A DNA stretch of 64,000 nucleotides from Phycisphaerales bacterium (lineage in GTDB: Bacteria; Planctomycetota; Phycisphaerae; Tepidisphaerales; Tepidisphaeraceae): NCBI GenBank assembly GCA_028291615.1, contig JAQGHM010000067.1, positions 1 to 64,000 on the forward strand, in the 5' to 3' direction. The notes below the pieces were generated by a model. That model had not been told where the DNA came from and did not search any database. It saw only the letters and a list, made by a program, of their open reading frames with translations. Both the position numbers and the translations under genes were made by a program. Below are positions 6,260 to 14,299 of this stretch, one piece after another (within the stretch, counting starts at the first letter, position 1; each line of letters starts with the position of its first letter).

Positions 6260-8716
6260 TCATCGTTCCAACAGCACTTTGGCGACCTCGGTTTCGGCGT
6301 CCTGCACCATCAAGCTTTTAGCGCGGACGTTGCCGTCGGGGCCGATGATGCAGAGGGTGGAGGGGGAGCCGAAATACTCTTTGGGCATCACCTTCATGTA
6401 GTCGGGGCCGGGCCAGGCGTGGATGCCGCCTAGCTTCCAGTCGGCGACGCGCTTCTTCGCGGTCTCGATCTCGCTGTCCATGCCCAGCGTGATCAGGATG
6501 ACGTCGGTCTCTTTGGCGATGCGCTCGTATGCGCGGTTCATCGCGGCGGCTTCGATCTCCATCTCGCTCCAGTTCCACCAGTACTTGAGCACCACGGTCT
6601 TGCCGCGGTAGTCGGACAGCTTGAGCGGCTTGCCGTCGAGAGTTTTGACGGTGAAGTCGGGGGCGGGCTTGCCGAGGCGCAGGCGCGGCTGGGTTTTTAC
6701 GGCGATTGTGCCGATGTCGAGCGGATCGTCGATGCGGTCTTTGCCGGCGGGCAGGGGCGGCACCTCGAAATCCACGGATGCGTCCACCAGGTCGATGCCG
6801 AAGTGGTTCTCGGTGACCAGCATTCGCAACTGCACGTTGTATTTGCCGGGCGTGAGGTCGTCGATGCGAAAGGAGCCGTCCGGGTTGATGTCGAAGTCTT
6901 CGCCCCACTGCTGCTCCACGGCCGCGCGCCCTTGCGGCGTGGTCTCCTCCCACTCCCGCTGCAACCGCCTCTGCTCCTCGTGGGACAGGCGCTCCCAACC
7001 GGGCGGGGGCGGCATGTTCGGGCGCTCGGCGTGGCTATACATGCCTTCGACGTTTTGATTCCCGCGCGTCACCCACGCCAGCTTGGTATCGGGCTCGTTG
7101 GTGGGCGTGGTGGCGGCGCGGCCGATGACGGGCCGGCCTTTCCCGCCGATCTGCGTTATCAGTGTGGCCCCCGGCTTGACGTCAATCAGCGTGTGGCGGT
7201 CGATGCGGAGCCGCTTGCCCGCCTCGAACCGCGATAGCCACGAATAGCCGGGCGCCACCTGTTTGAACGAGAAGCGCCCCTGGGCGTCGGTGATCGTCTC
7301 TTGGCTGTGGCGCACTTGCATCGGGACCCACTCGTCCTGTGATCCGGTTCGGTCGAGCATGACCTTGGTCTTCGGCTGGGGCGTCGCGCCGATCAGGAGC
7401 TGACCTTCGACGGCGCCCCATGCGCGGAGCGTGACCTGTCCCTTGAGCTTGGCAAACTCTTCGTGCGTGATCTCGGCGTAGCCGCTCGGATGCCGCGCCA
7501 CCAACATCCACGGTTGACCCGCGGGCGGCGCCGGGAATGTGAAATATCCCTGCGCTTCGGTTGAGATCGTCTCGACGGGCCACTGCGCGGCGTAGACGTC
7601 GACGTGGTCCGCCTCCCTTGGCGCGGGCGGCTGCGCCCGCGGGTTGGCCATCATCGCCGCCTGCCATTCCATGCGTGCCTGGCGTATTTCCTTGGACTCC
7701 TTCACGACGATGAAGACCTCGGCCTTCTCGGCGGGTGCTTCGGATGGGGTTCGGATGACGCCTTCGAGCACCTTGGACGGGGCCTCGGGGGCGGCGGTGG
7801 GTAACGCGGGCGCTGGGGTGGGTGGTTGCGGCTGGGCGAGCGGCGACTGCGCGAGTGGCTTGGCTGGCGCGGGCAAGGCCCATTTGACGATTGCGCCGGT
7901 GGCGGCCGCGCCGGTGAGACCCATGGTCAGCAGCGCAATTGCGACCTTTGACTTGGCCCAGGTCGTGATCGATCCCATGCCTTTGCCGAAGGCGATGGAT
8001 GTGATGGTGGAACCTGATACTGACGTCGCGATCGTGCCCGCGAGGCCAGCGGGCACGCCGGCGGCGCTGGCTTGTGTGGAGAGGACCGCCGCGACGGCCG
8101 CGACCGAGACCGCCACTCCGCCGGTGGAGAAACGGGTGCGCAGGCGCTCGATCGCGCGGCTGACGCGCTTGCGGGCGGCTTCTTCGCTGATTCCCATGGC
8201 CAGGCCGACGTCGCGGTGCGTTCGCCCTTCGATGTACTTGAGCAGCACCGCTTCGCGGTCGCGGCGAGCGAGGGCACCCAGCGCGTCGTCGAGCAATGGC
8301 GCGAGCGCGTCCCAGTCGTAGGTCGCGTCGTCGTCGGAGGCGGGGTTGGCGGGGGCGTTTGCAGGAGTCATGGCTTGATGCTTTTGTTCGTGGTGTCGGC
8401 GGCGGGCTTGACTCTTAAGCGCGTTGGCGGCGGCATAGCGCGTCGTGCAGAACAGCCAGTTCGACAGGATCGTGCGCTCGTTCAATCGCCCCGCCTTCTT
8501 CGCCAGCACGAGGAAGACCGCCTGGGCGACGTCCTCGGCCAGGTGCCGGTCTCCCACGCGGCGCACGGCGACCGAGTAGACCAGCTCCAGGTGCCGCGCG
8601 ACGAGCTTTGCGAACGCCGGCTGGGCGTCCGCACCGCCGACGGCGTAACGTCGGAGTAAGGTGTAATCCGAGACCGATTCCTCGACGATGATCGGGATGG
8701 AGTCGATGGGTGTCAT
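6260..8716 (-). CDS. ECF sigma factor fused to a membrane anchor, carboxypeptidase-regulatory-like domain and thioredoxin-like domain
   Basis: 818 aa. Residues about 18-110 form sigma-70 region 2 (HLAEDVAQAVFLVLAKKA) and about 140-195 region 4 (RDREAVLLKYIEGRTHRDVGLAMGI with its HTH), so the N-terminus should bind RNA polymerase and DNA. An Ala/Gly-rich segment near 255-275 is a plausible transmembrane helix, followed by a Pro/Ala-rich linker. The rest would be outside the membrane: beta-sandwich segments like carboxypeptidase-regulatory domains (GYFTFPAPPAG, GRFSFKQVAPG), then a redoxin-like C-terminus (GKPAPDFTVKTLDGKPLKLSDYRG). The usual redox CxxC is absent; the position reads WWNWSEMEIE, so thiol chemistry is not expected. 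Long C-terminal extensions on ECF factors are a known planctomycete habit and may replace a separate anti-sigma sensor. Confidence 0.85.
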   Translation of the reverse strand: MTPIDSIPIIVEESVSDYTLLRRYAVGGADAQPAFAKLVARHLELVYSVAVRRVGDRHLAEDVAQAVFLVLAKKAGRLNERTILSNWLFCTTRYAAANALKSQARRRHHEQKHQAMTPANAPANPASDDDATYDWDALAPLLDDALGALARRDREAVLLKYIEGRTHRDVGLAMGISEEAARKRVSRAIERLRTRFSTGGVAVSVAAVAAVLSTQASAAGVPAGLAGTIATSVSGSTITSIAFGKGMGSITTWAKSKVAIALLTMGLTGAAATGAIVKWALPAPAKPLAQSPLAQPQPPTPAPALPTAAPEAPSKVLEGVIRTPSEAPAEKAEVFIVVKESKEIRQARMEWQAAMMANPRAQPPAPREADHVDVYAAQWPVETISTEAQGYFTFPAPPAGQPWMLVARHPSGYAEITHEEFAKLKGQVTLRAWGAVEGQLLIGATPQPKTKVMLDRTGSQDEWVPMQVRHSQETITDAQGRFSFKQVAPGYSWLSRFEAGKRLRIDRHTLIDVKPGATLITQIGGKGRPVIGRAATTPTNEPDTKLAWVTRGNQNVEGMYSHAERPNMPPPPGWERLSHEEQRRLQREWEETTPQGRAAVEQQWGEDFDINPDGSFRIDDLTPGKYNVQLRMLVTENHFGIDLVDASVDFEVPPLPAGKDRIDDPLDIGTIAVKTQPRLRLGKPAPDFTVKTLDGKPLKLSDYRGKTVVLKYWWNWSEMEIEAAAMNRAYERIAKETDVILITLGMDSEIETAKKRVADWKLGGIHAWPGPDYMKVMPKEYFGSPSTLCIIGPDGNVRAKSLMVQDAETEVAKVLLER

Positions 8717-12416: not shown

Positions 12417-12837
12417 CGTCTCCGCGATGCTGCGCGAGGGATTCGAACCCCCATCGACCGGATTTTGAATCCAGCGCCTCTACCGGTTGGGCCAGCGCAG
12501 CGGAATCAAAGGATGAATGATGGAGGCGGAAGGATGAATCGGAAAAACATTCGCCTGATTCATCCTTCATCCTTCCCGCCTTCACCCTTCTCTTTGCCGT
12601 AGGTGGGATTCGAACCCACAACACGCGGGGTTTAAGCCCGCTGCCTCGTGCCGTTGGGCTACTACAGCTTGCAATCCTCAGCAGCTCCTCCACCTCAATC
12701 GCGCCGTCGTCCCGGCGCACCAGGCGCAGATTGCCGATCACCAGCTCGGTCCAGGGGCCGAGATAGATGCACTCACGATGATCTTCAAAGACCGCGGATA
12801 GCTCATCGGTATCCAAGATTCGACTGGGGTAAGGCAC
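12394..12837 (-). CDS. Hypothetical protein whose frame runs through two tRNA genes
   Basis: A GTG at 12837 follows a good Shine-Dalgarno (AAAGGAG, 8 bases away). The first 60 residues look like a real protein (start VPYPSRILDTDELSAV, then ECIYLGPWTELVIGNL). The frame then reads without a stop through tRNA-Leu(TAA), spacer 1 and tRNA-Leu(CAA). The natural 3' end was probably replaced when tRNA genes came to lie here, so the protein is either chimeric or no longer made. No family recognised. Confidence 0.3.
   Translation of the reverse strand: MPYPSRILDTDELSAVFEDHRECIYLGPWTELVIGNLRLVRRDDGAIEVEELLRIASCSSPTARGSGLKPRVLWVRIPPTAKRRVKAGRMKDESGECFSDSSFRLHHSSFDSAALAQPVEALDSKSGRWGFESLAQHRGDVTSRRLH
12428..12501 (-). 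tRNA. tRNA with anticodon CAA (leucine codon UUG), class-I shape
   Basis: 74 nt with a perfect 7-bp acceptor stem (GCTGCGC/GCGCAGC), A73 and no encoded CCA. The anticodon arm CTGGA-TTCAAAA-TCCGG closely resembles bacterial tRNA-Leu(CAA). The variable loop is only 5 nt (TCGAT), whereas bacterial leucine tRNAs normally carry a long variable arm. Last gene of the array. Confidence 0.85.
12508..12594. repeat. Palindromic heptamer-repeat spacer 1 in the tRNA array
   Basis: The left arm 12511-12540 (GGATGAA units) and the right arm from 12557 (CATCCTT units) are inverted copies that pair perfectly over at least 12 nt at the loop end. The left arm is repeated with one mismatch at 12958-12987. Confidence 0.75.
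12595..12668 (-). tRNA. tRNA with anticodon TAA (leucine codon UUA), class-I shape
   Basis: 74 nt. Acceptor GCTGTAG/CTACGGC with one T-G pair, A73, no CCA. The anticodon stem GCGGG/CCCGC is perfect, with loop CTTAAAC. The variable loop is 5 nt (GTGTT) instead of a long arm. Confidence 0.85.
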
Positions 12838-12874
12838 GCGATCATCTCCTTTCAAAACAAACTAACAACCACAA

Positions 12875-12949
12875 TGCTGCGGGCGGGATTCGAACCCGCA
12901 CTATCCGGGATCTCGGCCCGGCGCCTCCTACCGATTGGGCTACCGCAGC
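12875..12949 (-). tRNA. tRNA with anticodon GAG (leucine codons CUC/CUU), class-I shape, C33
   Basis: 75 nt with perfect acceptor GCTGCGG/CCGCAGC, A73 and no CCA. The anticodon stem CCGGG/CCCGG is perfect with loop CCGAGAT, so position 33 is C rather than the near-universal U. The variable loop is 5 nt (ATAGT). Confidence 0.8.
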
Positions 12950-12955
12950 GAATCG

Positions 12956-13050
12956 AAGGATGAATGATGAAGGCGGAAGGATGAATCAAATGCGGCGAGG
13001 CTTGCACTCTGATTCATCCTTCATCCTTCCACCTTCATCCTTTCTTCTTC
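12956..13050. repeat. Palindromic heptamer-repeat spacer 2 in the tRNA array
   Basis: The left arm 12958-12987 matches that of spacer 1 with one mismatch. The right arm from about 13014 is its inverted, partly shifted copy built of CATCCTT heptamers. The loop region differs from spacer 1. Confidence 0.75.
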
Positions 13051-13052
13051 AG

Positions 13053-13127
13053 TGCCACAGGTGGGATTCGAACCCACACTGTCCGGATTCTGAGACCGGC
13101 GCCTCCTACCGATTGGGCTACCGTGGC
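13053..13127 (-). tRNA. tRNA with anticodon CAG (leucine codon CUG), class-I shape
   Basis: 75 nt. Acceptor GCCACGG/CTGTGGC with one G-T pair, A73, no CCA. Anticodon loop CTCAGAA is closed by a T-T mismatch above four GC pairs. The variable loop is 5 nt (ACAGT). It shares the D-arm sequence AATCGGTAGGAGGC with the GAG tRNA. Confidence 0.83.
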
Positions 13128-13130
13128 AAG

Positions 13131-13218
13131 GATTCAGTAGGCAGTAGGCGGTCGGCAGTCGGCAGAGAGATTTCTCCTTCTTCTCTGCCTACCGCCTACT
13201 GCCCACTGCCTACTACTC
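13131..13218. repeat. Palindromic heptamer-repeat spacer 3 in the tRNA array
   Basis: Left arm of CAGTAGG-type heptamers, right arm of CTACTGC-type heptamers. The two are inverted copies that would fold into a long imperfect hairpin around a TTTCTCC loop. Confidence 0.75.
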
Positions 13219-13222
13219 AAGC

Positions 13223-13311
13223 GGAAGCTGCAGGAGTCGAACCTGCCAGGCCCCGTAAGAGGCCCCCTGGTTTTCGGGACCAGTCCCCGCGCCAAGAGGG
13301 TCAGAGCTTCC
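13223..13311 (-). tRNA. tRNA-Ser with anticodon CGA, class II, C33
   Basis: 89 nt with perfect acceptor GGAAGCT/AGCTTCC and a long variable arm with a 6-bp stem (GGCCTC/GGGGCC), as expected for serine. The anticodon stem CTGGT/ACCAG is perfect, and the loop CCCGAAA has C at position 33 instead of U. No CCA is encoded. Confidence 0.85.
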
Positions 13312-13361
13312 AGTATTTCTTTTCTCGCTTCTCACTACTCACTTCTCGCTTCTCTTCCAAA

Positions 13362-13432
13362 GAGCACGACAGGAGTCGAACCTGTGAGAATCCGGGCTTG
13401 CAACCCAGCCGCCGACCGTCGGCATCGTGCTC
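13362..13432 (-). tRNA. tRNA-Cys(GCA)
   Basis: 71 nt. Perfect acceptor GAGCACG/CGTGCTC; anticodon arm CTGGG-TTGCAAG-CCCGG. No CCA follows. The 50 bases between it and tRNA-Ser(CGA) are a one-sided run of TCTCGCT/TCTCACT-like heptamers. Confidence 0.85.
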
Positions 13433-13442
13433 GAACAAACCA

Positions 13443-13528
13443 TGGGTGCGGAAGGACTCGAACCTCCGTCGGTCTCATGGAGACTCCAGATCTACAGTCT
13501 GGCGCAATCGCCGCTCTGCCACACACCC
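13443..13528 (-). tRNA. tRNA-Tyr(GTA)
   Basis: 86 nt class II tRNA. Acceptor GGGTGTG/CGCACCC, A73, anticodon stem CCAGA/TCTGG with loop CTGTAGA. The long variable arm (AGTCTCCATGAGACC) is normal for bacterial tyrosine tRNA. Confidence 0.88.
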
Positions 13529-13531
13529 AGA

Positions 13532-13618
13532 TCAGTAGGCGGTAGGCAGAGGGCAGATGGCAGAAAGGACATGCCACCTCTGCCTACTGCCTACTGCTTA
13601 CTGCTTACTGCCTACTGT
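13532..13618. repeat. Palindromic heptamer-repeat spacer 4 in the tRNA array
   Basis: The left arm has degenerate CAGTAGG-type units. The right arm is a run of about five CTACTGC/TTACTGC heptamers in tandem. Same unit family as spacers 3 and 5. Confidence 0.7.
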
Positions 13619-13621
13619 TCA

Positions 13622-13694
13622 CGCCTCGTACGGGAGTCGAACCCGTTCCAACACCTCGACAGGGTGCCATGCGATCCCGTTACACCAACGAGAC
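13622..13694 (-). tRNA. tRNA-Asp(GTC)
   Basis: 73 nt. Acceptor GTCTCGT/ACGAGGC, anticodon loop CTGTCGA closed by CACC/GGTG. No CCA. It lies only 16 bases from tRNA-His. Confidence 0.85.
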
Positions 13695-13709
13695 CAACCG
13701 TTCTTCACA

Positions 13710-13781
13710 GGGCGAGCAGGGGAATCGAACCCTCGCCACGACATTCACAGTGTCGCGTGCTGCCACTACACCAAACTCGCC
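13710..13781 (-). tRNA. tRNA-His(GTG)
   Basis: Acceptor GGCGAGT/GCTCGCC with C73; anticodon stem CGACA/TGTCG and loop CTGTGAA. The base before position 1 is T in the DNA, so the G-1 typical of histidine tRNA is not plainly encoded unless the acceptor register shifts. The T-stem has one A-C mismatch. Confidence 0.82.
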
Positions 13782-13831
13782 ATCGCGCAAACCTTTTAGC
13801 GGCTCCGCTTGCGGAGCGCGTCCAACACCAG

Positions 13832-13921
13832 CGGAAGAGGAGGGACTCGAACCCTCACCGCCCAATTAAGCGGACACGTTTAGCAAACGCGTGCGACGAA
13901 ACCGATATTCGCCTCTCTTCC
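13832..13921 (-). tRNA. tRNA-Ser(GCT)
   Basis: 90 nt class II tRNA with perfect acceptor GGAAGAG/CTCTTCC and discriminator G. Anticodon stem CGCGT/ACGTG, loop TTGCTAA, long variable arm (TCCGCTTAATTGGGCGG). Confidence 0.87.
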
Positions 13922-13924
13922 AAT

Positions 13925-14007
13925 TCAGTAGGCGGTAGGCGGTATGCAGTAGGCGGAAAAGAGAAATCAGTTTCTGCCTACCGCCTACTGCCGACTGCCT
14001 ACTTCCT
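13925..14007. repeat. Palindromic heptamer-repeat spacer 5 in the tRNA array
   Basis: Left arm of CAGTAGG/CGGTAGG heptamers and right arm of inverted CTACTGC/CTACCGC heptamers around an AGAAATC loop. Long imperfect hairpin like spacers 3 and 4. Confidence 0.73.
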
Positions 14008-14010
14008 CCA

Positions 14011-14082
14011 TGCCCCCGCCAGGAATCGAACTTGGATCTCGAGCTTCGCACGCTCGCGTGGTTTCCATTCCACCACAGGGAC
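14011..14082 (-). tRNA. tRNA-Arg(GCG)
   Basis: 72 nt. Acceptor GTCCCTG/CGGGGGC with two G-T pairs, A73, anticodon stem CGAGC/GCTCG and loop GTGCGAA. Most bacteria read CGC/CGU codons with an A34 (inosine) tRNA-Arg(ACG); here G34 is encoded, so TadA editing is not needed for this tRNA. Confidence 0.83.
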
Positions 14083-14136
14083 GAATCTCGCATTCCCTCT
14101 CGCTACTCGCTTCTGACTTTTCGCTTCTCTCCTCAT

Positions 14137-14209
14137 TGCCTCCGCCAGGATTCGAACCCGGAACGCAGCGTTCGAAGCGCCGCATGATCATCCGTTTCAA
14201 CACGGAGGC
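14137..14209 (-). tRNA. tRNA-Arg(TCG)
   Basis: 73 nt. Perfect acceptor GCCTCCG/CGGAGGC, A73, anticodon stem CGGCG/CGCTG with loop CTTCGAA. No CCA. Separated from tRNA-Arg(GCG) by TCTCGCT-like heptamers. Confidence 0.86.
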
Positions 14210-14225
14210 GTATGATTTTCTTCAG

Positions 14226-14299
14226 AGCCCGTTGCCGGGGTCGAACCGGCGACTCGTCGCTACGAGGGACGCGTGATGCCGCGACTTCACCAAGCGGGC
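14226..14299 (-). tRNA. tRNA-Thr(CGT), divergent
   Basis: 74 nt. Acceptor GCCCGCT/AACGGGC with one C-A mismatch; D-stem GTGA/TCAC; anticodon loop CTCGTAG with a C-C mismatch at the closing pair; T-arm GCCGG/CCGGC perfect; 4-nt variable loop. First gene of the array. It starts 5 bases after a terminator-like hairpin, so it has no room for its own promoter. Confidence 0.7.

Follow-up and report, generated by a model that had tools for sequence, protein, structure and literature searches.

What places long hairpins built of seven-base units in the gaps between neighbouring genes? The question is raised by a stretch of 64,000 nucleotides (nt) from a Phycisphaerales bacterium (assembly GCA_028291615.1, contig JAQGHM010000067.1, positions 1 to 64,000; hereafter the window), in which an operon-like cluster of 13 tRNA genes on the minus strand (12428-14299; four Leu, two Ser, two Arg and one each of Cys, Tyr, Asp, His and Thr) hosts hairpins of degenerate heptamers. 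A sequence-only reading of the window had described five palindromic heptamer spacers in this cluster and two further ones with heptamers on one side only, and all of these are present among its 12 spacers. Two hairpins are of the GGATGAA type and lie at 12509-12589 (arms ~12509-12540 and 12557-12589) in the Leu(caa)/Leu(taa) spacer (12502-12594) and at 12956-13042 (arms 12956-12988, T-type, and 13010-13042, C-type) in the Leu(gag)/Leu(cag) spacer (12950-13051); the 30-base arm that they had been said to share (12511-12540 and 12958-12987) is there, with one mismatch. Three are of the CAGTAGG type, at 13135-13214 (arms 13136-13168 and 13182-13214) in the Leu(cag)/Ser(cga) spacer (13128-13220), at 13533-13617 in the Tyr/Asp spacer (13530-13621) and at 13926-14007 (arms ~13926-13957 and 13973-14007) in the Ser(gct)/Arg(gcg) spacer (13922-14010). 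Folded as RNA, the five palindromic spacers are far more stable than their shuffled versions (z of -4.5, -6.1, -9.3, -5.6 and -5.9, in the order given). The one-sided arrays, both of the TCTCGCT type (13316-13357 in the Ser(cga)/Cys spacer, 13312-13360, and 14098-14131 in the Arg(gcg)/Arg(tcg) spacer, 14083-14136), gave no stable fold (z of +1.5 and +1.0). Near-matches to two consecutive units were enriched in the window for GGATGAA (19 versus 4.4 expected) and CAGTAGG (21 versus 1.9), with none of 100 dinucleotide shuffles scoring as high, and more weakly for TCTCGCT (18 versus 9.8; 2 of 100 shuffles as high).

The sequence-only reading had proposed searching the genome for these units, and a search of the source genome (6.9 Mb in 400 contigs, 87% complete) placed all three well above controls: 118 sites for GGATGAAGGATGAA with at most one mismatch (4 for its control), 62 for CAGTAGGCRGTAGG (0 for its control) and 38 for TCTCGCTTCTCGCT with at most one mismatch (0 for its control). 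Random scatter without hairpin symmetry had been named beforehand as the outcome that would speak against a meaningful arrangement; instead, the scattered repeats keep both their symmetry and a strict placement at gene borders. In an unbiased sample of the genome (80 stretches, 1.07 Mb), tracts repeating at a lag of seven bases (lag-7 tracts, threshold 16) numbered 31 in noncoding and 13 in coding sequence, versus 0 to 10 noncoding tracts at lags 5, 6 and 8-13. Exact seven-base tandem units are therefore in excess of other lengths and dispersed genome-wide, mostly between genes, which is what characterizes heptameric intergenic repeats. By eye, the units fall into at least nine unrelated families (GGATGAA, CAGTAGG, TCTCGCT, CCGATTG, GATGGAA, AAAGGCA, CTAGCAA, CTGAGTC and CCAGAAG) that have their architecture in common.

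Transfer RNA spacers are one setting for these repeats. Of 64 tRNA matches in the genome we examined 62, and found a lag-7 tract in 20 of their 124 flanks, corresponding to 11 spacers, and none at lags 5, 8, 10, 11 or 13. The strict lag-7 test misses the first spacer of the window because one unit of its right arm has 8 bases; with it, 12 tRNA-adjacent spacers carry heptamers, 7 of them in the window cluster and 5 at four other loci (3 in two other tRNA clusters and 2 between a tRNA and a protein gene). The idea that the hairpins sit exactly between tRNA genes fails as a tRNA-specific rule, most copies lying between protein genes.

The architecture of the arms was examined among the matches listed for the genome-wide unit search, with both possible orders of inverted tracts looked for. 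In loose clusters, the unit always preceded the inverted unit (24:0 for GGATGAA, where some clusters are chance matches, 24:0 for CAGTAGG and 4:0 for other families). Strictly defined CAGTAGG arms numbered 68, of which 43 had exactly four units, with unit number changing in steps of seven bases, and formed 20 pairs, all with the G-rich arm first (20:0). The strict GGATGAA scan, which yielded 70 arms and 15 pairs, itself imposes four units, so that the preference for four is a statement about CAGTAGG only. Among lag-7-armed hairpins of the sample and the window, the G-rich arm came first in 10 of 11, versus 16 of 22 other hairpins. The second unit of GGATGAA arms is of two types, TGATGAA-like or GGCGGAA/GGTGGAA-like, and all 13 pairs that could be typed at this unit join one arm of each type, in either order (p = 8e-4 by permutation of the 26 labels); the remaining 2 of the 15 pairs fit the same rule if one of their units is taken as offset. 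This consistent mixing argues that the hairpin spreads as one unit. For CAGTAGG pairs, a visual comparison of second units gave no clear excess of mixed pairs over chance, and the claim of two arm types is accordingly made for GGATGAA. The loops are unlike each other, with common 6-mers in only 5 of 55 and 3 of 36 comparisons.

Placement was scored against genes called with a home-made finder based on codon usage, whose start codons are approximate. Of 35 hairpins, 29 had a called gene on both sides, and the 6 others were excluded from the count. All but one of the 29 lie between co-directional genes, and at 26 the spacer that remains once the hairpin is removed is at most 30 nt, although gaps that short account for 0.75% of the bases between genes. 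In paired CAGTAGG arms, the outer ends (n = 40) fell at -3 to 6 nt from stop codons (14 ends), at 2 to 13 nt from start codons (15) or at -1 to 7 nt from tRNA ends (8), with 3 lacking a called neighbour. Single CAGTAGG arms mostly resemble paired ones on their outer side, while on the inner side the distance is mostly 12 to 167 nt and in a few cases larger; GGATGAA arms, apart from those inside genes, are placed as CAGTAGG arms are. In the sample, lag-7 tracts occurred in 15 of 310 co-directional, 5 of 77 convergent and 4 of 120 divergent gaps of at least 40 nt; these rates indicate that tracts overall, one-armed ones included, are less strictly placed than the hairpins. Together with the hairpins of other units at the same gaps in related bacteria (below), this placement points to a process that repeatedly puts hairpins at gene borders.

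The proximity to start codons bears on the ribosome-binding site. Of 561 genes, 208 have a Shine-Dalgarno 4-mer at -18 to -4, and 77 have one in a control stretch placed 30 nt further upstream. We then took 21 hairpins that lie between co-directional genes no more than 16 nt from the start: the motif was found in 1 of 21 cases in the sequence as it stands versus 11 of 21 once the flanks were joined without the hairpin, which places the hairpin often between the Shine-Dalgarno motif and the start codon. The RNA hairpin would draw these two elements together, as happens at some T4 genes.

The Leu(gag)/Leu(cag) spacer measures 6 and 31 nt in relatives of other genera versus 102 nt here, and the Leu(taa)/Leu(caa) spacer 4 and 20 nt versus 93; one relative has a GGATGAA-type hairpin in a Phe/Gly spacer (109 nt) and a GATTGCC-type hairpin in a Met/Gln spacer (107 nt). 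The suggestion that the repeats may be mobile is supported by these short spacers and by the dispersal of hairpins through the genome. We also traced, in other genera of the family, four operon gaps picked for a CAGTAGG hairpin here and conserved-looking genes, which we take to be mcsA-mcsB, nuoK-nuoL, mreB-mreC (mreC found at 9 of 24 loci, with the spacer obtained at 8) and rplY-pth. A lag-7 hairpin was present in 9 of 43 traced gaps versus 6 of 356 co-directional pairs in the sample (Fisher p = 2.7e-6), a baseline that describes this genome rather than each relative. In 8 of the 9, the units differ from those here. The gaps held GTGGAAA, AAGTGAC or GGTTGCT types at mcsA-mcsB, AGTTGAT types at nuoK-nuoL and GGTTGCT at mreB-mreC; at rplY-pth, one mixture of CAGTAGG and GTACGCA occurred besides an AGTGGAA and a CAGTTGT type. 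The remaining genera were nearly empty at these gaps (from gene overlap up to ~30 nt) or had longer, unrelated spacers. A 260 kb sample of a closed relative (G012) held 13 lag-7 tracts with partly other units, such as CGAACAT. The longest spacer of the window cluster, Leu(taa)/Leu(gag) (12669-12874, 206 nt, versus 17 nt in a relative), is itself without heptamers, and a frame of 153 amino acids that overlaps it had no Pfam match.

The sequences show how the hairpins are built, dispersed and placed, that sites in relatives can be nearly empty, and that hairpins of other units recur at the same sites. On this basis we favour, with moderate confidence, the view that they are a lineage-specific kind of dispersed repeat, copied into the gaps of operons and tolerated once there; that they are mobile is probable. 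Each has about four G-rich heptamers in its left arm, then a short loop that varies, then the right arm in inverted form, and would spread within the genome as a whole. The hairpins lie in very short gaps within one operon, between two tRNAs or between stop and start codon, and in many cases precisely where the Shine-Dalgarno motif is followed by the start. Movement would be by copying, and the copies may be near-neutral passengers, the RNA hairpin presumably folding out and so keeping the Shine-Dalgarno motif and start codon, or two tRNA ends, close together. Several results weigh against this view. The 11 of 21 joined motifs are not above the genome-wide 37% (p = 0.18). Of 16 start-side one-armed copies, which are unable to form a hairpin, 9 stand 4-13 nt ahead of a start codon, and 13 of the 16 genes behind them have no Shine-Dalgarno motif; folding out is therefore not needed for tolerance, and a strict version in which the hairpin is tolerated only because it effaces itself by folding is weakened. 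By our simple gene finder, 18 of 70 GGATGAA arms lie inside called genes (versus 0 of 68 CAGTAGG arms). At the hairpin flanks, the direct-repeat score for a target-site duplication equals that of shuffled partners, the loops have no sequence in common, and no linked mobilising gene was found in the genome, which has two matches to Y1 transposases.

An alternative is that the repeats arise where they stand, through polymerase slippage and strand switching, with seven being the stretch of DNA held by the polymerase, a hypothesis cited in Rehm 2015 (PMC4692102). The stepwise change of unit number in sevens, the missing target-site duplication, the unrelated loops and the different unit families of different genera at one site would all fit such a local origin. 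It does not account, however, for dozens of loci with one unit and identical unit-by-unit variants, nor for arm types that combine one of each, and slippage explains neither the common word nor the rarity of units of 5, 8, 10, 11 or 13 bases. We consider it unlikely.

We are similarly doubtful that the repeats are regulatory or RNA-binding elements under selection, with arms before starts controlling translation and arms after genes stabilising 3' ends. Such a role would fit the strict position beside start and stop codons, the reuse of the same site by other genera and the single arms ahead of starts that lack a Shine-Dalgarno motif. Yet the neighbours are tRNAs and unrelated genes that, by the names we assign them, are presumably housekeeping genes, many genera are empty at the same site, and the units differ by genus, so that one RNA-binding protein could not match them all.

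A much less probable identity is that of REP/REPIN elements, which RAYT (Y1) transposases mobilise. They too are short dispersed inverted-repeat hairpins lying between genes as doublets with two end types, but the repeats studied here do not flank Y1 transposase genes: 30 Y1 loci from this genome and its relatives, 88 kb in all, contained a single lag-7 tract and their flanks no heptamer hairpins. Tandem heptamers are not a known trait of REP elements, nor are REP/REPIN known to have heptamer arms.

That the repeats are processing signals of tRNA operons, as the sequence-only reading had suggested, is hardly credible despite the 12 tRNA-adjacent spacers with heptamers, since protein genes flank the majority of copies, the spacers of the same tRNA pairs measure 4-31 nt in relatives and lack heptamers, the 11 tRNA-adjacent spacers of 40 nt or more in the genome sample are all free of heptamer tracts, and the repeats are thus neither confined to nor conserved at tRNA spacers.

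Two further element classes do not fit. For a MITE or other derivative of an insertion sequence, neither a target-site duplication nor a conserved internal sequence in the loops was found. Intrinsic terminators were rejected by position, without a terminator scan, because the hairpins lie inside operons with a start codon a few nt past them.

Other repeats were seen in the same genome. A second class of hairpins has an arm period of ~8 or 9 bases and GGCACGAA- and CGCGAAGG-like units (L087:2968-3088, L150:5473-5569 and L147:13632-13682). A dispersed hairpin family with ACGTGAAACATGAAG arms has a mixed spacing of 7 and 8 bases (L081:17558-17612, L086:483-542, L098:2643-2722 and L136:1351-1405), and a longer inverted repeat, TATCACGGGCGTCTCGCCCGTGC, without heptamer structure, occurs in at least two places (L106:12690-12793 and L128:1764-1863). 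Elsewhere in the window, a frame of 818 amino acids (6260-8716, minus strand) combines sigma-70 regions 2 and 4 with carboxypeptidase-regulatory-like and thioredoxin-like (AhpC-TSA) domains, an unusual sigma factor fusion.

How widely does the pattern reach? Within the phylum, CAGTAGGCRGTAGG was present in 31 of 393 genomes, mostly at one or a few sites, and none of the others reaches 62; since most of the 393 genomes have none, this word as a phylum trait was ruled out. Among named bacterial genomes, at least 116 stretches contain four exact [AG]GTAGGC units, and the 80 loci that we fetched belong to Mesorhizobium, Rhizobium, Bacteroidetes, Planctomycetota, Acidobacteria, Verrucomicrobia, Chloroflexi, Okeania and others. 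Their 102 clusters included 25 inverted pairs, in the same order as here (25:0). At two loci of other bacteria (L305:5841-5917 and L319:5116-5234), CAGTAGG is mixed with CAGTAGT or CAGTTGG, as if neighbouring words had been swapped.

Heptameric intergenic repeats are known from cyanobacteria, Xanthomonas and Beggiatoaceae; what is new here is the mixture of families, these placements and the recurrence at the same site. Among cyanobacterial examples, STRR repeats are heptamer units in plain tandem arrays, and the P6b repeats of Nostoc consist of heptanucleotides. The likeness to cyanobacterial repeats drawn from the window alone, inversion aside, was a fair one. In Rehm 2015 (PMC4692102), the GGGAATC and GGGGA(C/T)T repeats of Xanthomonas and Nostoc, for which G-quadruplexes were proposed, resemble ours as dispersed intergenic arrays with a preference for four units and with 'convergent' (inverted) pairs, of which two genomes have 70 cases among 186 repeats and 75 among 183. 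On the sense strand they are found close to stop codons, and on the antisense strand ahead of starts, at sites partly common to species but varying in length and sequence. Those repeats use one G-rich unit, whereas here at least nine units occur in one layout, none with GGG and some without GG (as judged from consensus units, which cover individual degenerate units in part); a three-tier quadruplex was therefore rejected as the general reason. Neither tRNA spacers nor the gap between Shine-Dalgarno motif and start codon appears in the parts of that paper that were consulted. The TAACTGA repeats of Beggiatoaceae, cyanobacteria and Bacteroidetes (MacGregor 2015, PMC4679880) also form arrays a few nt before starts where Shine-Dalgarno motifs are rare, with a patchy occurrence across the phylogeny, shorter repeat-free gaps in relatives and no known mechanism, and were proposed to control translation in Beggiatoaceae; they are direct arrays of one unit, with a single inverted repeat found, unlike the inverted hairpins of many families here. 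The P6b stem-loop of the Nostoc tRNA-Leu(UAA) intron (PMC4476775) is made of one of two repeat motifs, in classes that repeatedly replaced each other, which resembles the differing units at one site here, although it sits inside an intron. In a literature search beyond which subscription papers mostly lay, we found no report of multiple heptamer families in one genome, of tRNA spacers or of the Shine-Dalgarno-start gap as a site.

A further, tentative reading, less likely than the spread of repeats within this lineage, is that many bacterial phyla share one process that places hairpins at operon-internal gene borders by architecture and not by sequence: the arms would each have some four heptamers, the G-rich one would lead, and the ends would fall within a few nt of a stop, start or tRNA end, with each lineage having its own 'words' and refilling the same gaps. 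The target of such a process may be accessible RNA between genes, such as the Shine-Dalgarno-start gap or a pre-tRNA spacer.

Heptameric intergenic repeats had previously been noted in single species, each with its own explanation, be it quadruplexes, translation control or slippage. Here, one genome holds many unrelated families that follow a single layout, and in related genera other families occupy the same operon gaps. The question of why seven, and why at gene borders, thereby becomes testable, since the cause must act on architecture and position and not on one sequence, and the gap between Shine-Dalgarno motif and start codon offers a straightforward way to test for bridging of a hairpin by ribosomes.

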